Positions 11,446 to 33,127 of a stretch of 34,147 nt of DNA are shown in pieces; the stretch's first letter is position 1, and every line of letters starts with the position of its first letter. The stretch covers positions 1 through 34,147 of IMG/VR virus record IMGVR_UViG_3300030451_004413. One strand, 5' to 3'. The stretch is from a virus. The notes beneath the pieces were generated by a model. It ran no database searches. It worked only from the letters and a program-made list of their open reading frames with translations, and had not been told where the DNA came from. Position numbers and translations under genes: made by a program.

Positions 11446-11674
11446 ACGCTCATGGTCTGTGGAGCCATCTCGCGAGCGCGTCTATTATCGTGTCGAGGGT
11501 CTTTATCATAAAGTGTGTGAAGAGGATAGGTCTGATAATTGGACCATCTGTTACTATGACAGTCTAGACGTGGATCAGGGCGTGATTGTCAACGTGATTC
11601 AAGTTGATGTTCTAGGCCAAGAGCGCCACACAAAATACTCAGCCACATCGGAGGGTCTAGTCTTTGTCGATTGA
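11420..11674 (+). CDS. Small protein of unknown function between terminase genes
   Basis: 84 residues if started at ATG 11420, which has GAGG 6 bases upstream; a GTG lies at 11417 and another ATG at 11423. It reads as a small beta-strand-rich protein (RVYYRVEGLYHKV, NWTICYYDSLDV, IVNVIQVDVLG, HTKYSATSEGLVFV). No family recognised. It overlaps the small terminase by 26 bases and the large terminase by 11, so it is embedded in the packaging operon. Confidence 0.55.
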   Translation: MMKVRVKLKRSWSVEPSRERVYYRVEGLYHKVCEEDRSDNWTICYYDSLDVDQGVIVNVIQVDVLGQERHTKYSATSEGLVFVD

Positions 11675-13025
11675 GCTCAACCCTCTACAGCAAGACATCC
11701 TTGGCGCTATACGCAGAGAGGAGCGGATCATATCAGCTAGATGTGGATGGGGATCTGGTAAGACCTCAGCGCTGGTCTTCAGTTTATTATTTGTGAGTAA
11801 GTGGCGCGCCGGTCGGTCGAGCTTACTTGTCACAGATACCAATCCACGTTATAACAGTGTTCTACTCCCTGAGATGGAGAAGTGGTTGTCTCCCTTGGGA
11901 TGGACCTACAACCACACCTTGCGCCAATGGGCAGACTCTCAGACAGGCTCAACGGTGTGGTGTAGGTCTTATTATCGACCAGGCACACGAGACGCGACAC
12001 ACAACCCGCTTGAGGGTCTGAATGTGACCTCTGGTGTGTGCCTCATAGATGAGTGTCAGACCCTCTCATCAGAAGTGGCACACAAAGCCCTAGGCCGTCT
12101 CAGAGCTGGTCCGTCTCCCATCATGATCCTTGTGGGTCTACCTGTCAGCGGCGCTTGGTGGGTGGAGATGGCTGAGAGTGCTGGGTGTGCCCCCATGCTC
12201 TATACTTCCTATGTAAATGAGGCTAACCTTAGCGCTGACTGGTTTGAAGCCACCAAGCTTTTACCAGAGGCTGAGCGTGAAGCTATGGTTATGAACAAGC
12301 CGCGACCACCTAGCGGGCTCATCTACTCTGAGTTTAATGAGGAGACTCACGTCATCGATGGGTGGGAGTATAAACCGAGCATGTCAGGGCGCATTGCCAT
12401 TGATTGGGGATTCAGAAAACCAAGCGTGTTAATCATCGCCCATGATGATGACCTGGGGGCTGATGTGATCTGCGCAGAGCTTAACCCAGCAGAGGTCACC
12501 GTTGATGAGCTAGCGCGGCTCATCCTCCTCATAGCGTGGCCTCGATCTCTGAGGAGCTCAGCGCCAGGTGATCGCATTTGGTTAGATTATGGCGTTGCAG
12601 ATAAGGCAGGTAGAGCGCGCAATGACCAGACAGGCAGATCAGCATTTAAGGCTATGAGGTCAGCGCCGCCCACCGGTCTAGGGATGCCTCTGAGATCTAA
12701 CACAGACCCCATCAGGACTGACGTGCTCAACGGCATCCAGAGACTAAAGCGAGCATTCTCAAGAGGTCAGTACCTCATCACGCGTGAGGTGTGGGATGCT
12801 GGAGAGCGCGCCACAGGTAACAGCATAAGGAAAGCGCTGTACTCTTATGGTTGGGATAATAAAGAGCAGCCTAAGAAGGATGGCCGTGAGGATCCACTTG
12901 ACGCGCTCAGATATGACTGCATCACATGGAACTGGTCAGATACACTAGTTGATCACAGACAATACACAGCCAGAGCACCCACTGATAGACGTGTGAGGGT
13001 AGGCGGTAAAGGCTCCAAGTTTTAA
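11664..13025 (+). CDS. terL: Terminase large subunit
   Basis: A 453-residue packaging motor. The ATPase half has Walker A GWGSGKT (residues 28-34) and Walker B VCLIDEC (D129, E130). The nuclease half has the RNase H-like acidic residues D247 (IAIDWGF), D308 (WLDYG) and D413 (DPLDALRY). It pumps DNA into the prohead and cuts the concatemer. The start is TTG 11664, 9 bases after GGAGG; this is unusual but no ATG or GTG lies nearby before the Walker motif. A 100-bp gap with a candidate -10 element follows. Confidence 0.93.
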   Translation: MSIELNPLQQDILGAIRREERIISARCGWGSGKTSALVFSLLFVSKWRAGRSSLLVTDTNPRYNSVLLPEMEKWLSPLGWTYNHTLRQWADSQTGSTVWCRSYYRPGTRDATHNPLEGLNVTSGVCLIDECQTLSSEVAHKALGRLRAGPSPIMILVGLPVSGAWWVEMAESAGCAPMLYTSYVNEANLSADWFEATKLLPEAEREAMVMNKPRPPSGLIYSEFNEETHVIDGWEYKPSMSGRIAIDWGFRKPSVLIIAHDDDLGADVICAELNPAEVTVDELARLILLIAWPRSLRSSAPGDRIWLDYGVADKAGRARNDQTGRSAFKAMRSAPPTGLGMPLRSNTDPIRTDVLNGIQRLKRAFSRGQYLITREVWDAGERATGNSIRKALYSYGWDNKEQPKKDGREDPLDALRYDCITWNWSDTLVDHRQYTARAPTDRRVRVGGKGSKF

Positions 13026-13029
13026 AGGT

Positions 13030-13087
13030 GCTCTCCTCAGCTGTTTAGTGATTTCAGGCCGTAAGGTGAATATATACTAAGGAGAGC
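13030..13087 (+). promoter_or_regulatory. Inverted repeat and candidate promoter before cyclase gene
   Basis: GCTCTCCT (13030-13037) and its exact complement AGGAGAGC (13080-13087) flank a short gap that holds TATACT (13073-13078), a good -10 box. The -35 region (around 13050) is poor. Together they suggest that the cyclase module can be transcribed on its own, possibly with an activator or repressor bound to the repeat. Confidence 0.35.
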
Positions 13088-13125
13088 TTCAACAGACTAC
13101 ACCACACTCGACCACAGGACAAGTC

Positions 13126-13929
13126 ATGGTAGATCTCAAGGAACGTCAGCTCTGCATCGTGCTTCTCGACCTCATAGGCTCTACAGCTTTTGTCCAGCGT
13201 GTTGGCGCTAAAACAGCCGCTGTGTGGTTGCAGTATCATGATAGACTAGCGCGCTCACTCCTCTACAAGTTCAACGGTCGAGAGATAGATAGGTCTGATG
13301 GGTTTATGTTGAGCTTTGACAAGCCCATCGACGCGGTAAACTTTGCCCTACACTATCAAAGCACAATACCTGAGAAGGTAAAGCTAAACACAAGAATCGG
13401 CGTTCATTGGGGCTCAGTGATCGAAGTAAAACAGGATGACACTTGGACAGCTGTAGGCGCTAAGCGTGTGGAGCTCGAGGGCATCAGTAAAAACATAGCA
13501 GCGCGGACGATGTCTATCTGTGGAGCTGGTCAAGTCTTACTCACTCAGCAAGCTATCGATGCAGTGAGGAACAAGACCAACTATCACACACCAAAAGGGA
13601 CAAGGTTTATTTGCGTTGGCCTTTATAAGTTCAAGGGCGTGGGTCAACCTCAGTCTATCTATGCAGTGGGCTCAACCATACAGAGCTTACAGCCACCGCC
13701 GGGCAATGATAAAGCCAAGAGACTAGGCGGACCAAAGCGCGTGAGGAGTCGAGCGCGAGATAGAAAGATTATTGAGTGGGTGAGCTGGTCACTGCCACGC
13801 CTAGCGCTCATCAGCCTCATATACATTATCTGTGAAATCTGGCCTTGGCTCAGCGCTCAAGGCTATGTTACATGGGCTGAGGAGAGCGCTGACTTTATCG
13901 TGAGGTTGTGGTATGGCCCCAAATACTAA
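13126..13929 (+). CDS. Class III nucleotide cyclase with C-terminal membrane anchor
   Basis: A 267-residue protein. Residues 8-175 form a class III adenylate/guanylate cyclase domain: LLDLIGST with metal-binding D15, GREIDRSDGFMLSF with the second metal Asp D58, and KNIAARTMSICGAGQVLLT with transition-state N123 and R127. All four are present, so activity is likely. The positions that normally read the base are I54 (usually Lys) and E116 (usually Asp), so the nucleotide made cannot be predicted; cAMP, cGMP, cCMP and cUMP are all open. A very basic linker (KRVRSRARDRK) precedes a TM segment at about 225-250, placing the enzyme on the cytoplasmic face. AGGA lies 6 bases before the ATG. The two-TM gene behind it overlaps by 17 bases. 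Cyclases are rare in phages. Confidence 0.85.
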   Translation: MVDLKERQLCIVLLDLIGSTAFVQRVGAKTAAVWLQYHDRLARSLLYKFNGREIDRSDGFMLSFDKPIDAVNFALHYQSTIPEKVKLNTRIGVHWGSVIEVKQDDTWTAVGAKRVELEGISKNIAARTMSICGAGQVLLTQQAIDAVRNKTNYHTPKGTRFICVGLYKFKGVGQPQSIYAVGSTIQSLQPPPGNDKAKRLGGPKRVRSRARDRKIIEWVSWSLPRLALISLIYIICEIWPWLSAQGYVTWAEESADFIVRLWYGPKY

Positions 13930-14395
13930 GACGCAGAAAGAGATCACCTCAGAGATCAAGTCTAAGCGTGGGTGGTGGTTCTCTGTCTTCTTCATGGTCT
14001 TGGTGGTGGGTCTTGTCCTCTTCCTCACTTATGTTGAGATTGTTGAGAAGAATCGTGATGTGCTGGTGGGTATACTCGGCATGATCACAGGCTCAATCTC
14101 TTCAATGATGGCCATAGCATCAGGGCGTGACCCTTCAGAAGTTGAGGAGCTCAAGGACAAACTATCAGCAGCCAACGCTGACAGAGCGGCGCTCATAGGC
14201 AGACTGAGAGACGCCCAAATACAAGTCCAGCTCAGTAGAGAGCAGATCAGTGAGCTGCAAATTGCAGTCATCGACAAGCTATCCATATTTTCAGGTCAGA
14301 AACCAATCCAGACGAAAGATCCTGATGAGGTAATACTCCACCCCATTGTCGAGGATTGGCTGCCTACAATTGAACCTGTGGACAGGGAAGAATAA
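13913..14395 (+). CDS. Two-TM coiled-coil protein coupled to cyclase
   Basis: A 160-residue protein with a basic N-terminus, TM1 (about residues 26-49, WWFSVFFMVLVVGLVLFLTYV), a short charged loop, TM2 (about 55-76, LVGILGMITGSISSMMAIASG), then a coiled coil (EVEELKDKLSAANADRAALIGRL and on to about 125) and a polar tail. Its start lies within the cyclase gene, after TGAGG, so the two are translationally coupled. No cyclic-nucleotide-binding domain is recognisable. It could be a membrane effector or partner of the cyclase, or a holin-like phage protein of the two-TM type found near other structural operons. Confidence 0.7.
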   Translation: MAPNTKTQKEITSEIKSKRGWWFSVFFMVLVVGLVLFLTYVEIVEKNRDVLVGILGMITGSISSMMAIASGRDPSEVEELKDKLSAANADRAALIGRLRDAQIQVQLSREQISELQIAVIDKLSIFSGQKPIQTKDPDEVILHPIVEDWLPTIEPVDREE

Positions 14396-14402
14396 AATCT
14401 AT

Positions 14403-14442
14403 ATGATCGCCTATGATCGCCTAACTCATTTAGGCGCATAGG
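14403..14442 (+). promoter_or_regulatory. Hairpin and tandem 10-mer overlapping portal ribosome site
   Basis: ATGATCGCCT occurs twice in tandem (14403-14422). CCTATG-AT-CGCCTAA (14410-14424) pairs with TTAGGCG-CATAGG (14430-14442): 13 bp with a 2-base bulge and a 5-base loop. The right end covers part of the AGGGG ribosome site (14440-14444) of the portal gene. It may limit portal translation or separate it from the cyclase module. No T run follows. Confidence 0.6.
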
Positions 14443-14449
14443 GGTCCAC

Positions 14450-15859
14450 ATGACAGACGCACAAAGGCCACCTAGACACCTTAGAGCTCAACATCCACGC
14501 TTTGGAATCAAGGGCATCTATGGCACTCAGTTGAGTGGTGGTAACATCACAGGCAAAGAGAACAACCCGCAGCTTACTGGGCTGAATTGGGTATCTGAGG
14601 CTGAGGAGATGATGAGGACTGACCCCATAGTCAGGCGATCATGGCACATGCTCAGACAGACCTTGCTCTCAGCGTCGTGGCGTTTTGTGCCAGGTGTCGA
14701 GGGTGACAGAGTGGCTGAGGAGCTCGCCAGATATGCTAACGAATGCTGGGGGCTTGATGGCTACTCAGGGCAGATGTCTGTCAGCTGGGAAGAGCAACTA
14801 GCCTACTTATGGGAGTTTATCCCGTTAGGTTATCGCTATGCTGAGGAGGTCTATAAAGTTGGACCAGACTCTCAAGGATCTATCAGAGTATGGCTCAGCC
14901 ATTATGCCGACCGTGAACCTTCAGCCCACTCTCAGTGGCTAAGCCGAGATAACCAGCGTCTTGATGGTGTGCTCCAAAACACTGTGGGAGTGGGCAAAGT
15001 ACCTGAGCCCATCCCAGCTAATAAACTACTCTTGCTCACCCTTAATAAGACAGGCTCAAACTTTGAGGGCGTTGGTATGCTTCGCCCTGCCTGGTGGTGG
15101 TGGCGCACTAAGCAACGTGTGAGCAACCTAATGTGTGTTGGTCTTGACCGGTGGGCCGTACCCACGCCAAAGGTCACAGTGAACAGGGCAGAGGCTGAGA
15201 GTATTGGTTTAAGTGATGGTGACATCGACGCGATGATCAATGATGCAGAGTCTCAGGCTCAAGCATTCATCAGCGCTGAACAGAGCTATTTGGTCGAGAA
15301 TCCGGCGGTGAAGTTTGAGACCTATGCAGCCGCGCCAAACCTATACGCTGATGGCCCCATAAATATCATCACGAAATGTGATAGCCAAATAGCGGCCTCT
15401 TTCTTGACTCAATTTGCAGACCTAGGGCAAAGCTCCACCGGTGCGCGCTCAGTGGGTGAAGTACATCACAGCGTCTTCAGGAGAGCAGCAATCAATCTCT
15501 GCGACATAGTAGCCTCACAGGTGAGCGGTGTTGATCGTCGTGGAGGTGGCACTATAGGCCGCTTAATTAGGTGGAATTATGGTTGCATTGATCCAAGCAA
15601 GCTCCCCCGTCTCACACACACTGGTCTCGATACTGACGACCTAGCAGAAGGGTTGAGCGCTTTGCCTGGTCTTGTTCAGGCTGGCCTTCTCACTCCTGAC
15701 GATGAGCTTGAACGCGCTATACGTGAGCGCCTAGGGGCTGGTGACCTGCCAGAGGATGCACAGCGCTCATCTATCTCCAGAGTCTCGAGCATTGGTGGTG
15801 GTGGTGCTGTCGCTACACTCACAGAGCAACTCATCAAGAGGAGACGTGAGAATGGTTAA
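14450..15859 (+). CDS. Portal protein, DUF935/Mu gp29-like
   Basis: A 469-residue portal. Features of the DUF935 type are SEAEEMMRTDPIVRRSWHML near residue 50, LLSASWRFVPG, the membrane-free LLLLTLNKTGSNFEGVGMLRP core, a Trp-rich AWWWWRTKQR stretch and GARSVGEVHHSVFRRAA near residue 325. Twelve copies form the ring at the capsid vertex through which DNA passes. The length is close to Mu gp29. It directly precedes the protease/scaffold gene, with which it overlaps by 8 bases. Its ribosome site AGGGG is partly within a hairpin. Confidence 0.85.
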   Translation: MTDAQRPPRHLRAQHPRFGIKGIYGTQLSGGNITGKENNPQLTGLNWVSEAEEMMRTDPIVRRSWHMLRQTLLSASWRFVPGVEGDRVAEELARYANECWGLDGYSGQMSVSWEEQLAYLWEFIPLGYRYAEEVYKVGPDSQGSIRVWLSHYADREPSAHSQWLSRDNQRLDGVLQNTVGVGKVPEPIPANKLLLLTLNKTGSNFEGVGMLRPAWWWWRTKQRVSNLMCVGLDRWAVPTPKVTVNRAEAESIGLSDGDIDAMINDAESQAQAFISAEQSYLVENPAVKFETYAAAPNLYADGPINIITKCDSQIAASFLTQFADLGQSSTGARSVGEVHHSVFRRAAINLCDIVASQVSGVDRRGGGTIGRLIRWNYGCIDPSKLPRLTHTGLDTDDLAEGLSALPGLVQAGLLTPDDELERAIRERLGAGDLPEDAQRSSISRVSSIGGGGAVATLTEQLIKRRRENG

Positions 15860-17825
15860 GAAGATCAAGAAGCGCACACAGGCACAGACACCAGCGCCAA
15901 AAAAGGACAGAGTGAAGGGGAGCGCTAAGAATCCGAAAGGATCAGCCAGCGGCTCAAGAGGTGGTATTGAGATCTCTCAGAAGGCTGTCACAGCTTTAGA
16001 GAATATGAGAGACAAGCACAATGCGCGCTTCACTAAGAAGATGAGGCGCGTGGACCTTGGCACACTAAAGGCTGTGTTTCGTCGTGGCGCTGGTGCTTTC
16101 TCTGTTAGTCATAGACCGGGGATGACTCGAACACAGTGGGCGCTTGCTCGCGTGCGTACCTTCTTAAAGCTTGTGGCCACAGGTCAGAGAAAGAAGGCTT
16201 ACACCACAGACCTCGATCTCTTACCCACTGGTCACCCTCAGAAGAGAGAGAAGAAGTCAGAGCAACTCAACACCCCCAAAAAATATGATCATATTGACTT
16301 CACCCCACCTCAAGGCGTGCGTGATGCAGCTGCTAGGGCGCTTGAGGTCAGAGCGACAAAACCAGAGAGTCAGCGTGGTATGACTCCGGTGGGCATCGCT
16401 CGAGCTCGTGACCTTAAAGCAGGTAAGACCCTGTCACCAGATACAGTCAGAAGGATGCTCGCTTTCTTGATACGCCATGAGGTAGACAAGCAAGGATCCA
16501 CGTGGGATGAGCAGGGGAAAGGCTGGCAGGCTTGGCATGGTTGGGGCGGTGATGCCGGATTCTCTTGGTCTAGAAAGACAGTGAAGCAGATGGATGCAGC
16601 AGACAATAAAGCGCAGTCTCTGAGAGCTTATGGTGAGGCTATACAGCTCACAGAGGCTCCAAGCTTTGAGATACCAGAGGGCCTAACTATAGGCCGCCCA
16701 TTTAAAACTCTTGGACTTGGTCAAGTCAGCTCTCGTATGAGTGGTGAGGCTATAGGCAAAGAGATTGATATTGAGATGCTCAGTGAGATGGTGAGGGTCT
16801 TCAACGCTCGAAAAGAAGCAGACCCCGTCATCATAGACTGGCAACACGCGACCTCTCCATTCTCGGGAGGTACACCAGCGCCACCGGAAAGCGGCAACGC
16901 GCTAGGATTAATCATAGACCTCGAGCTTAGAGAGGATGGTCTCTACGCTACCCCAGCATATAATGAGCGTGGCCTTGATGTGGTCACGTCAGCCGGTGGT
17001 GTGTTGTGGAGCTCTCCAGAGTTTCTAGCAGGTGAAGTCTATGACAGGCTAGGCGGCTCCAAAGTGGGAGACGCTCAACTACTAGCCATCACTTTAACCC
17101 CACGGCCCGCGCAGTCTCACGACCAAATCGACCGTGTAACACTAACAGAGGAGATTCAGATGGACAGCATTGACAGCATGTCACCTGATGAGCTCAAGCA
17201 GATGCTAAAAGCTAAAGACGAGATGGTTCGTGAGCTTGAGCGACAAATTAAAGAGATGAAGGCAGACTCAGAAGCCTCTCTCAAAGCTGAGTCAGATGAT
17301 GACAAAGCAGAATCAATGACCGCCAAGGACAGTGACAAGAGCGAAAAGCTTGCACACACTCCTGAGCATGATGAGAAGAAAGAGCACTATAACAAGATGA
17401 GTGAATCAAACCTCTCTCCAGTTATGCTCTCAGAGATCCAAGCGCTTAATGAGAAGCTCAGCGCTCAAGATGCCGAGATCAAGAAACTCAGATCAGAGCG
17501 TGACTCTGCTGAGTGTGACCGAGCTGTTGACGTGCTTCTTCGAGAAGGCAAGATCAGCCCATCTGAGAATGATGTGGCGCGTAAAGCTTGGGAGCTCCGA
17601 GAGATGCAGCCTGAGTTTTGGCAGATGTTCAGCGCTCGCGAGGCAGGCGCGTCTGTACCACTCGCAGAGATCGGTCATGGCGCCAGTGGTGCTGAGATCA
17701 GCAAGGCCACACTTGATCAAGAGGTGCGTAAGCTCTCAGCAGAGAAGAGCATCTCATACAGTGAAGCGCTGGCCACGTTCCGCGCTGATAATCCTGATTA
17801 CTATAATCAAGCCTTTGGAGGTTAA
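15852..17825 (+). CDS. Prohead protease-scaffold fusion with N-terminal extension, Mu I-like
   Basis: A 657-residue protein starting at ATG 15852, overlapping the portal stop, with GAGGAG upstream. Residues 1-60 are basic. Two phage-associated modules of unknown function follow: KAVFRRGAGAFSVSHRPGMTR at about 70-90, and GVRDAAARALEVR ... GIARARDLKAGKTLSP ... RHEVDKQG ... GWGGDAGFSWSRK at about 155-245. Residues about 270-430 resemble the Mu I/S78-type prohead protease (VIIDWQHATSPF, ALGLIIDLELREDGLYATPAYNERG, ITLTPRP). The rest is an acidic coiled-coil scaffold. The protease probably processes the scaffold, and perhaps itself, after shell assembly. The N-terminal modules are not part of Mu I. 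Confidence 0.75.
   Translation: MVKKIKKRTQAQTPAPKKDRVKGSAKNPKGSASGSRGGIEISQKAVTALENMRDKHNARFTKKMRRVDLGTLKAVFRRGAGAFSVSHRPGMTRTQWALARVRTFLKLVATGQRKKAYTTDLDLLPTGHPQKREKKSEQLNTPKKYDHIDFTPPQGVRDAAARALEVRATKPESQRGMTPVGIARARDLKAGKTLSPDTVRRMLAFLIRHEVDKQGSTWDEQGKGWQAWHGWGGDAGFSWSRKTVKQMDAADNKAQSLRAYGEAIQLTEAPSFEIPEGLTIGRPFKTLGLGQVSSRMSGEAIGKEIDIEMLSEMVRVFNARKEADPVIIDWQHATSPFSGGTPAPPESGNALGLIIDLELREDGLYATPAYNERGLDVVTSAGGVLWSSPEFLAGEVYDRLGGSKVGDAQLLAITLTPRPAQSHDQIDRVTLTEEIQMDSIDSMSPDELKQMLKAKDEMVRELERQIKEMKADSEASLKAESDDDKAESMTAKDSDKSEKLAHTPEHDEKKEHYNKMSESNLSPVMLSEIQALNEKLSAQDAEIKKLRSERDSAECDRAVDVLLREGKISPSENDVARKAWELREMQPEFWQMFSAREAGASVPLAEIGHGASGAEISKATLDQEVRKLSAEKSISYSEALATFRADNPDYYNQAFGG
17160..17825 (+). 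CDS. Nested scaffolding protein from internal start
   Basis: Within the protease gene and in the same frame, ATG 17160 is preceded by AGAGGAG at the ideal 6-base spacing. Starting there gives a 221-residue acidic, helical protein (MDSIDSMSPDELKQMLKAKD ...) covering only the scaffold region. Mu I/Z and lambda C/Nu3 make their scaffolds in the same way. The start falls at the border between the protease domain and the coiled coil, which supports the call. Confidence 0.65.
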   Translation: MDSIDSMSPDELKQMLKAKDEMVRELERQIKEMKADSEASLKAESDDDKAESMTAKDSDKSEKLAHTPEHDEKKEHYNKMSESNLSPVMLSEIQALNEKLSAQDAEIKKLRSERDSAECDRAVDVLLREGKISPSENDVARKAWELREMQPEFWQMFSAREAGASVPLAEIGHGASGAEISKATLDQEVRKLSAEKSISYSEALATFRADNPDYYNQAFGG

Positions 17826-32100: not shown

Positions 32101-32228
32101 CGTCCCTCAACGGTACGCTCGAGCCCACTACCTATGCTAACGCCTCAGCGCTCCACCAAGCTGACGGATATTTAGCTAACGTCTCAGACGCGATAAACAC
32201 AACGGTGGATGCACAGGAGTTCAGTTAA
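29154..32228 (+). CDS. Large tail-tip / hub protein
   Basis: At 1024 residues this is the largest product in the window. It is encoded last in the tail block, where tail-hub or tail-associated receptor-binding proteins sit. The N-terminus (RRVFALEVGGLLYRYHSGGG) and RAKLYAAHQYPDGGLSSWLEVVNGFIESS around residue 195 resemble hub-type proteins that assemble around the tape measure. A region near 700-720 (GDDGDLRDLVESILKLLSAAIVMKRD) is helical, the rest beta-rich. No lysozyme or peptidase motif is evident. It likely forms the tail tip that the fibre binds to. Confidence 0.65.
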   Translation: MINSDQGRRVFALEVGGLLYRYHSGGGVTGLSTTIAPTINYQDIEAIVEVSSVSSSLDIAGGVGQYSATTVTLSVDRRRGGAGDPGIVFGRCGQRSASTRAQLTASMSRAASTVQINQDLSSLSYPRLLHIGAETVKALSATSTSVNVLAGRAVGNTPRQTHSVLLEGSTVPELTTEITTFRGRRAKLYAAHQYPDGGLSSWLEVVNGFIESSPIIEEQDKVSLSIVPLTALIDTQLGDKGIGQCSLLDGFHYYGVNGNNLEYALCWHKLLGIYRIDQTSTITASTLSLLKNGQSWLTTDFSLTLPNGSADNNAIRQPHPRYPLLVAALDPRPKAAYPTALTETTNAGGDTIYTLTLGSQTESYTTAELQDLERLEVHYATSRITELKHHQLGLDEVKRWPDVVNDTLVASGPTNTTGFDGGWARWVLNGETELVVRKNTNSQVQVELLLWSDLSTFRRESRRQGFGDYRNILYWEDANTALLALHNHSRCWYPIDLSDSPADFVQDWRVRHESGVFRRFRVQPPALSTTESIQGVASSYYQLFEDRFLVESSLGLPSSLGSARFDIVVRFTDRKTNEQRDQIYVATHETTATFDGADVGVFVHLDPAQDFSQCVSFGNWKGFERVNIFRASRINGDRPGVALLKLLESGGGEQLNGTYDVFTLGLNIDSSHIDETSFLSVDSTSLITVDTFISGDDGDLRDLVESILKLLSAAIVMKRDPSTGSNKITLVSIGNDRSANTDLTISAGDWLADPPPYWGVYEDIVTQIEYEYDYDAIQDKYMSSVLFNNQEAITRYGGERSKITLTLPGLSSDDFGRGAGDRFAEFLPTSSRIFNLLSNPLRVWRGEIGTGQSIYLDVGSYVKVTSPHLKGYSDAYGVVDGVGMVRAIRQELMSEGCEVEIIVTGLSPVAWNATAKVTSITTTSVTVSEDDFSSSTVDDVSFFQVGDVVDYVPLGDHDNAITGLTIQSISTNTITFTAAHGISSLNGTLEPTTYANASALHQADGYLANVSDAINTTVDAQEFS

Positions 32229-32229
32229 T

Positions 32230-32886
32230 ATGCCGACTAAAGCAGAATTACAAGAAGAGATTGACGGGCTCAAACATCAGGTGAGGCGGATGGACCGAGC
32301 GCTGAACCAAGCTCAGCTAGACCTCTCAGCATTACCTGAGCGCTTGGTGAGCTGGCCTACTCCTCACATTGACCCACGCTCAGCAGAGGCCATTCAGCGC
32401 GGGCTGTCAGAGTGGGAGCAAAACATCTCTGATCCAGATCCAAGAGTAAGCGCATACATCAGAACTCAAGAGGGAATCGGTTGGGCGTGGGAGAAACCGT
32501 ACACACGCAATGGACAGTTTGCTTGGTGTGGTGCTTTCGCGGCGTGGTGTTGGACCTCAGTCAAGCTGGACATCAGAAAAAAGATTTTTCCTTCATGCTA
32601 TAGGCTCTACTCTAACTGGTCTCAAAGCTCTCGTCACATCGAACACGACAAGATGGCCCCAGGTGATATCGTGGTTGTCTACGCAGCAAAGCGCTCCAAG
32701 CAGGGCGATCACATCACCATCTGTGTGGAGGCTCCTGATGCTGAGGGTGTGTTCAAGACGGTAGAGGGTAACGCACACGGCACGCTAGGTGATGGCTCAC
32801 ATGGTGAAGGCGTCATCAGGCGAGACCGCACACTTGATGAAGTGGCTCATGTCTATAGGCTCCTTGGCGGTGATTTCGATGAGTGA
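32230..32886 (+). CDS. CHAP-type amidase/endopeptidase (endolysin or virion hydrolase)
   Basis: A 218-residue protein started at ATG 32230, 10 bases after AGGAG; an in-frame ATG 32209 lies within the previous gene. Residues 1-40 are helical, coiled-coil-like. The rest has the CHAP pattern: nucleophile C100 in FAWCGAFAAWCW, H161 in GDHITICVEA and N181 in TVEGNAHG. CHAP enzymes cut peptidoglycan cross-links or stem peptides. The holin-like gene next to it suggests a lysis endolysin, but its place after the tail hub also fits a virion-borne hydrolase. No signal peptide. Confidence 0.75.
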   Translation: MPTKAELQEEIDGLKHQVRRMDRALNQAQLDLSALPERLVSWPTPHIDPRSAEAIQRGLSEWEQNISDPDPRVSAYIRTQEGIGWAWEKPYTRNGQFAWCGAFAAWCWTSVKLDIRKKIFPSCYRLYSNWSQSSRHIEHDKMAPGDIVVVYAAKRSKQGDHITICVEAPDAEGVFKTVEGNAHGTLGDGSHGEGVIRRDRTLDEVAHVYRLLGGDFDE

Positions 32887-33127
32887 GCAGAAAGAAGAGA
32901 AGACGGCCACAGAGAAAGCAGGAGGCCGCAAGGCTATGGCTTTTTATGCGACTCTTGCTTGTTGTCTTTTGCTCGCGCTTCTCGACAAAGCACACACAGA
33001 AGTACTAGGATTGATTGACACTCTCTTTCTTGTCTACGCTGGGAGTAACGTGCTTTCAAAGCGCACCCCAAAAGCACAAGACAAGCCCACAGAAACAACA
33101 CCCAAACCTACACTGGAGAAGCCATGA
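32879..33127 (+). CDS. Small membrane protein, holin-like
   Basis: An 82-residue protein from ATG 32879, overlapping the CHAP gene by 8 bases. It has a charged N-terminus (SEQKEEKTATEKAGGRK), one or two hydrophobic stretches (AMAFYATLACCLLLALLDKA; EVLGLIDTLFLVYAGSNVL) and a Pro/Thr/Lys-rich tail. The size, two short TM stretches and position next to an endolysin-like gene suggest a holin. Family not recognised. Confidence 0.6.
   Translation: MSEQKEEKTATEKAGGRKAMAFYATLACCLLLALLDKAHTEVLGLIDTLFLVYAGSNVLSKRTPKAQDKPTETTPKPTLEKP

Follow-up and report, generated by a model that had tools for sequence, protein, structure and literature searches.

The DNA analysed here (the window) is the whole 34147-base virus record IMGVR_UViG_3300030451_004413. 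At positions 13126-14395, between the genes for the terminase large subunit (TerL) and a Mu-type portal protein, it carries two open reading frames (ORFs) on the plus strand, the first for a class III-type nucleotide cyclase and the second for a coiled-coil protein with two putative transmembrane (TM) helices, referred to below as 2TM. Both ORFs, their 17-base overlap and their place between terminase and portal were found as the initial annotation of this sequence had described them (Table 1).

Properties of the cyclase and of 2TM

The product of positions 13126-13929 has a class III-type fold and is a putative enzyme. The score against Pfam PF00211 (21.3 bits) was slightly below the cut-off of 21.9; the profile search of the PDB gave Rv1900c (1ybt) with an E value of 3.4e-12, and the NCBIfam profile TIGR04510 matched residues 11-199 at 6.5e-45. 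The AlphaFold (AF2) model had a pLDDT (predicted local distance difference test score) of 87 and a best Foldseek match of 3.0e-14, and in the VIA comparison it was superimposed on the Rv1900c domain with Z 23.8 and a root mean square deviation of 1.9 over 171 residues. Profile searches and model placed the domain within class III, in agreement with the earlier assignment.

The domain begins almost at the N terminus, its first strand starting at residue 3 of the model. Behind it come a conserved PP...K stretch, which was also visible in bacterial relatives, a basic segment and the helix of residues 215-245. Conservation was determined in a non-redundant set of 76 loci with less than 90% cyclase identity, taken from the 145 sufficiently complete ones of the 154 pairs known at that time; pairs from later scans lie outside this set. 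Expressed as the mean frequency of the commonest residue, it was 0.728 for the domain, 0.435 for the anchor region and 0.265 for the C terminus, the two least conserved parts.

The four key catalytic residues named in the initial annotation (D15, D58, N123 and R127) are all present in the translation and strongly conserved, and K170 was added to them. We take D15 and D58 to be the first and second metal aspartates, N123 and R127 to be the transition-state asparagine and arginine, K170 to be the probable triphosphate-binding lysine, and I54 and E116 to be the base-selecting positions, the former being a Lys in canonical adenylyl cyclases. Of the class III residue features, the two metal aspartates and the transition-state Asn and Arg are thus present in the window. 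D15, I54, D58, E116, N123 and R127 were identical in all 21 aligned sequences, the window included. The canonical base-selecting pair is Lys/Asp(Thr) in adenylyl cyclases and Glu/Cys in guanylyl cyclases. Neither pair was found: the window has I54/E116, and E, N or S occurred at position 116 in the relatives. The description of these residues as atypical was therefore confirmed, but they are not special to the phage of the window, being common to the bacterial cyclase fusions described below (one ORF in each of eight loci).

The AF2 model of 2TM, at modest confidence, is a helical hairpin followed by a 54-residue helix, and the annotation as a two-TM coiled-coil protein was borne out to that extent. 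The loop that joins TM1 and TM2 has about 8 residues, the last three being N47 R48 D49. The most conserved part of the protein is the stretch of the rod from residue 72 to residue 107 (0.895), with the invariant residues D90, R91, L94, I95, R97, L98, R99, D100 and I103. The best family match of the window protein was phrog_9990 (unknown function) at 4.3e-4. Weak matches to PD-T4-6 of PADLOC (0.027, window), PspA (8.3e-4, one relative) and the AbrB duplication domain (5.2e-4) gave no function, and a Foldseek search of the model against the PDB returned one row with a meaningless E value of 6.6. An assignment to SLATT, suggested by repeated weak matches, is doubtful: PF18142 matched 20 of 21 members below the cut-off (best 0.00098), but AbrB was matched in 17 of 21 (best 0.0012), further membrane families had comparable scores, and hhalign against three PF18142-matching rows, the whole of that comparison, gave a probability of 0.4%.

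No 2TM match was obtained in GenBank phages, nor in any of 398 Pseudomonadota genomes at 1e-4 in a search run without a positive control. The cyclase had one match in GenBank phages, MT838110.1, which resembles a cyclase-ATPase fusion and gave no match to the 2TM profile. The plasmid search returned 99 records, with less than 60% identity at the best place in each.

Table 1. Positions of the cyclase-2TM pair, its residues and segments, and its neighbours in the window. Residue counts refer to the 76 non-redundant loci.
Feature	Position	Strand	Evidence
TerL, upstream neighbour	11664..13025	+	phrog_2, 2.8e-11
Class III-type nucleotide cyclase homology domain (residues ~8-186), conserved PP...K linker, probable C-terminal membrane helix; 267 amino acids (aa)	13126..13929	+	Pfam, PDB and NCBIfam profiles; AF2 model
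D15 codon	13168..13170	+	75/76; remaining row ends there at contig end
I54 codon	13285..13287	+	I 71, V 4, S 1 of 76
D58 codon	13297..13299	+	76/76
E116 codon	13471..13473	+	E 67, N 8, S 1 of 76
N123 codon	13492..13494	+	N 73, A 3 of 76; bacterial relatives P 6, A 2 of 8
R127 codon	13504..13506	+	76/76
K170 codon	13633..13635	+	76/76
C-terminal helix 215-245 with probable membrane anchor, after Arg/Lys-rich segment	13768..13860	+	AF2 helix; hydropathy borderline; conservation 0.435
Overlap of the cyclase and 2TM reading frames, 17 bases	13913..13929	+	ORF coordinates
2TM coiled-coil partner, 160 aa	13913..14395	+	ORF; relatives; AF2 model; weak family matches only
TM1 with conserved RGW start, residues 16-41	13958..14035	+	AF2 helix 8-40; hydropathy up to 2.65
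TM2 with TGSISSM motif, residues 50-71, preceded by invariant N47 R48 D49	14060..14125	+	AF2 helix 48-69; hydropathy up to 1.96; conservation 0.876
Putative cytosolic helical rod, residues 72-127	14126..14293	+	AF2; conservation
Hairpin between 2TM stop and portal start, without T run	14405..14446	+	-20.6 kcal/mol, z -3.1, 0/200 shuffles equally stable; not among the sites of the terminator scan
Mu-type portal, downstream neighbour	14450..15859	+	PF06074, 6.9e-25

Linkage, conservation and divergence of the two genes

Scans of viral contigs yielded 53, 295, 286, 289, 283 and 1 relatives, and a scan with TerL yielded 440. Up to 80 loci of each scan were examined, a limit which favours sequences closely related to the first query row, and the viral collections are fragmentary. 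This gave 371 viral loci, not counting 8 bacterial loci, the window itself (L001), L187 and three SLATT loci. With pairs regarded as distinct if they differed in the last 237 bases of both genes, the 371 loci comprised 169 distinct cyclase-2TM pairs, 160 repeats of those, 17 loci in which the cyclase stood alone, 3 in which 2TM did so and 22 lacking both genes, the last all from the TerL scan. The single-gene loci all lay at contig edges, the contig stopping no more than 70 bases past the cyclase or beginning no more than 80 bases before 2TM. The latter applied to each of the three loci with 2TM only, the arrangement which the initial annotation had named as evidence against a coupling of the genes. 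Both genes were present together in every examined locus in which both sides could be read, across different phage backbones, as a conserved pairing would have it. There is good support for regarding the two genes as one unit.

The genes were on the same strand in all 169 pairs, with the cyclase first in 167 and the order reversed in two (L127 and L268). The distance was 50 bases or less in 160 of the cyclase-first pairs, and the genes overlapped in 146 of the 169. In seven pairs 180-1499 bases lay between them; one of these (L042) resulted from a broken cyclase frame, and other genes were inserted in six. Because of the two reversals and the six insertions the linkage is not that of one frozen operon. 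Loci L182 and L068 belong to one contig of 35769 bases, in which the cyclase runs off one end and 2TM starts near the other, and which is therefore probably circular with the break inside the cyclase gene.

Among the best 80 of the 440 TerL loci, 40 reached the portal gene, and all 40 carried both genes. A further 17 carried one or both genes before the contig ended, while 23 ended earlier or, in the case of L202 and L236, within other genes. As these two contigs end in other genes before any portal gene, they do not show a loss of the pair. The ratio of nonsynonymous to synonymous substitution rates (dN/dS) against close relatives, calculated by a simple counting method, was 0.03-0.07 for the two pair genes and 0.04-0.05 for TerL, the cyclase comparison with L006 being saturated at synonymous sites and others being near saturation. 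Both genes are under purifying selection comparable to that on TerL in the lineage of the window.

The pair remained constant in the relatives while the stretch between TerL and the cyclase varied. In the window this stretch (13026-13125) consists of 100 bases without a gene. In L022, L034, L106, L202 and L236 it is a variable cargo site with ThyX-, dCMP deaminase- and DNA methyltransferase-like genes, identified partly by similarity and by eye.

By single-linkage clustering, one or more of four markers of the window backbone (TerL, portal, g18, g24) lay within 4 kb in 41 of the 76 loci. None was seen in the other 35, a group that includes short contigs, and one common marker does not prove the same backbone. 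Other backbones had helicase genes near the pair or a portal of another family (L014), and contigs bearing the pair reached 375 kb. No relatives of the window TerL were found in GenBank phages at 1e-5, and no host was indicated by helicase searches from the other backbones.

The two genes differed in their divergence, with a minimum pairwise identity among the 76 loci of 24% for the cyclase and 46% for 2TM. Variant cyclases of this set comprised a subclade with N116 (eight loci), A123 (three) and S at both 54 and 116 (one). The cyclases of L044 and L249, both with a helicase gene near the pair, were 38% identical and their 2TM proteins 81%; for L151 and L249 the values were 43% and 83%. In a tree of 57 rows (49 phage and 8 bacterial) the cyclase of L281, the 2TM of which is ordinary, did not group with the other 48 phage rows, which formed a clade (100/98), a placement made uncertain by its long branch. 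Cyclase and 2TM identities correlated moderately (Pearson 0.42, from non-independent pairs).

Comparison with known systems

The closest curated cyclase domain was TIGR04510 (mod_pep_cyc, putative peptide modification system cyclase). The phage cyclase matched it with 153.9 bits over the domain only, compared with the curated 400 bits over a model of 814 positions, and is thus no full-length representative. Bacterial cyclase fusions, which may or may not belong to TIGR04510, were found in eight loci (L055-L062) of metagenome-assembled genomes of Rubrivivax and Rhizobacter, five of them in one such genome (MAG-214). They share with the phage cyclase I54, E116, the PP...K after the domain and, in most rows, the region GREIDRSDGF. 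Unlike the phage genes, their ORFs measure about 970-1360 aa and contain an ATPase-like part (recognised by eye), the 2TM profile was unmatched in 8 of 8 loci, and N123 is replaced by P in six and by A in two.

The best solved structures were the class III domains of Rv1900c (LipJ) and Ma1120 (Z 23.8 and about 22), which have the same fold and metal aspartates, at about 25% identity with the phage cyclase. Their base-selecting residues presumably differ from those of the phage cyclase, and we know of no 2TM partner of either protein.

Pycsar, according to PMC11224242, combines a cyclase of the class III kind (PycC) with PycTM or PycTIR, so that one form has a membrane protein. The phage pair is similar in that a class III cyclase stands beside a membrane protein. 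PycC has an aromatic residue (Tyr/Phe) two positions before the first Asp, as deduced from the numbering in that paper, while the window has L13, and the 76 loci have L in 73 cases and F in 2. The Pycsar partner has a cyclic-nucleotide-binding domain, whereas none was found in the phage 2TM, and the phage pair is viral and fixed in the lineage examined. The cyclase had no match in PADLOC, a library whose PycC content was unchecked, and none of the 11 PDB sequences matched at E values up to 10 bore the name PycC. Nor was a PycC named in the 50 rows of the VIA comparison, which is no evidence of a difference. The parallel to Pycsar drawn in the initial annotation is not supported as membership by the features compared, as neither the aromatic residue of the pyrimidine pocket nor a nucleotide-binding domain of the partner was found.

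In Panoptes (OptS and OptE), as outlined in PMC12657218, two genes form a unit, one for the synthase of a nucleotide signal and one for a membrane effector with two helices. The phage pair differs from it in that its partner protein is all helical in the model and its genes are viral. An S-2TM-beta effector such as Cap15 or OptE consists of two membrane helices and a beta-barrel, and no strand was present in the 160-aa model of the phage protein (modest confidence). A description of the cyclase-2TM pair was not found in the open-access literature, as judged by titles and the beginnings of abstracts. These comparisons suggest that the pair is a unit of a nucleotide cyclase and a membrane protein, a known layout, which is viral here and has an undescribed partner.

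Possible function and surroundings of the pair

The reading which we prefer, with a probability of about 0.42, is a unit at the inner membrane in which the cyclase controls 2TM during infection. The products of both genes would act together at the inner membrane of the host, the cyclase being held there by its C-terminal helix, and 2TM forming a membrane hairpin with a rod; the basic flanks would place the cyclase domain and the rod in the cytosol. The cyclase may control the assembly or opening of 2TM, either through its product or by direct contact with the rod, and 2TM may act on the membrane as a pore or channel, like Pycsar and Panoptes in general layout. Such a unit would serve the phage in infection by changing the host membrane or by shutting out competing phages, and would not be a captured host defence gene. 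The reading is favoured by the linkage of the genes in different backbones, by a purifying selection similar to that on TerL, by the persistence of 2TM next to changing cyclases, and by the conservation of 2TM, which is highest in TM2 and the adjoining rod. Superinfection exclusion, a decoy and a manipulation of host cNMP signalling, which the initial annotation had proposed, may each be the purpose served. A moron-like defence gene fits less well, because the pair is fixed in the part of the lineage examined (40 of 40).

Several results weigh against this reading. A nucleotide-binding domain of 2TM was absent from the Pfam, PHROG, NCBIfam, PADLOC and PDB matches, as had already been noted from the sequence, and the model is all helix; for this reason a gated effector is something we infer. 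The 2TM model itself has low confidence (pLDDT 71, predicted template modelling score 0.28). Residue 116 of the cyclase varies (E/N/S) while 2TM changes less, which would be odd if 2TM recognised one nucleotide, and N123 is Ala in 3 of the 76 loci. The hydropathy of the cyclase anchor is borderline, with 19-residue means of 1.58 at residue 227 and 1.79 at residue 235, and 1.58 was also reached at residue 18 inside the domain. The annotation of the cyclase as membrane-anchored therefore stands in so far as the long C-terminal helix holds a probable anchor, but the hydropathy values leave it in some doubt. Finally, a regulator would account for the fixed presence and the strong purifying selection just as an effector would.

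In the strongest alternative 2TM is the regulator and the cyclase the output: hairpin and rod would serve in trans as the membrane transducer which receptor cyclases have in cis, and the cyclic nucleotide would act on host receptors and thereby steer host physiology for the phage. The cyclase domain has no N-terminal transducer of its own, conservation of the partner is highest in the rod beside TM2, and similar 2TM proteins accompany several types of cyclase. However, the external loop of only about 8 residues means that there is no outside sensor domain, and a single fixed host receptor agrees poorly with the variation of the base-selecting residues. We consider this alternative possible but doubtful.

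It is unlikely that the cyclase domain is a switch binding nucleoside triphosphates (NTPs) and not an enzyme, sensing NTP levels and gating 2TM as infection drains the pool. The invariance of D58, R127 and K170, together with the changes at E116, the Ala at N123 in 3 of 76 loci and the Pro (6) or Ala (2) of the eight bacterial relatives at that position, would agree with such a switch, but N123 is retained in 73 of 76 loci and both metal aspartates wherever they are readable, as expected for an active enzyme.

A device for lysis or its timing, with a holin-like 2TM timed by the cyclase, is very unlikely. The pair lies in the late gene block of the window, and relatives of endolysin-, CHAP-like or C39-type genes were found within 1 kb of it in 7 of the 76 loci. 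These queries were the window endolysin and genes chosen beside the pair in L014, L151 and L250, so that these three loci match by construction, and the count is no test of enrichment since the query genes were picked for standing beside the pair. The other 69 loci had no such match, and a holin needs neither a rod-bearing protein of 160 aa nor a cyclase. The lysis timer had been suggested in the initial annotation; in the window the role of main holin is less likely for 2TM, as a separate endolysin-like gene at 32209, far from the pair, adjoins another small membrane-type ORF. A Pycsar member carried by phages against other phages is hardly credible despite the similar layout of a class III-type cyclase next to a membrane protein, as the cyclic-nucleotide-binding domain of the partner, the pocket aromatic in the window, a PADLOC match of the cyclase (in a library of unchecked PycC content) and a PycC among the 11 PDB matches were all not found and the pair is fixed in the lineage examined.

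The reading of 2TM as a membrane protein under control of the cyclase can be extended, though tentatively and with less likelihood than the reading itself. Phages would then have a membrane cyclic-nucleotide unit of their own for core infection, in which a clade of cyclases with non-canonical pockets (I/E, I/N) controls an undescribed 2TM rod protein. The cyclase half would be exchangeable, as indicated by different pockets, the loss of N123 and one distant replacement, while 2TM changes little and would be the functional heart, which various nucleotide signals, or NTP binding by itself, could drive. Bacterial defence is known to combine the synthase of a nucleotide signal with a membrane effector. 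The comparable pair described here belongs to phages themselves, with small and very large genomes, and within the lineage examined it is retained no less strictly than the terminase. An active pair would mean that phages employ a second messenger in the normal course of infection, and that 2TM represents an uncharacterised family of viral membrane proteins whose partner can be tested. Since the base-selecting residues and N123 vary in nature, it can be tested directly which nucleotide, if any, is used.

A scan of positions 11600-16000 for promoters and terminators gave 3 + 3 sites compared with 3.7 + 2.6 expected, and showed no promoter of the pair. The surroundings of the pair outside the window lineage contained several envelope-type genes. 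DUF481 outer-membrane-type proteins formed a cluster of six loci, with members within about 3 kb of the pair in L115, L151, L250 and L255, and 3 of 3 tested members passed the Pfam cut-off. In a cluster of four lipoprotein-like proteins near the pair, two members matched Peptidase_C39_2 and that of L250 had no Pfam match. In six loci a small protein, which by eye begins like a lipoprotein, ended no more than 5 bases from the called cyclase start. These neighbourhoods, which come from few lineages, suggest hosts with an outer membrane and a role at the envelope.

An undescribed membrane-type protein of 85-105 aa with the motif GYILGQ (by eye) was encoded no more than 4 kb from the pair in 14 of the 76 loci (for example L044:9635-9928), and the 12 offsets shown were all 310 bases or less. 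The member of L151, the one that was tested, gave no match to Pfam or PHROG, and hhalign of 2TM against this protein gave a probability of 3.8%, which shows no relation. A kinship of the window genes g02-g04 with the 'MTY' genes near the pair elsewhere was rejected, since it came down to one weak match (E 0.0014). In the window itself, the endolysin-like gene (phrog_21825, 3.4e-11) at 32209-33127 is overlapped by its small membrane-type ORF (by eye), and the two are perhaps a lysis cassette.
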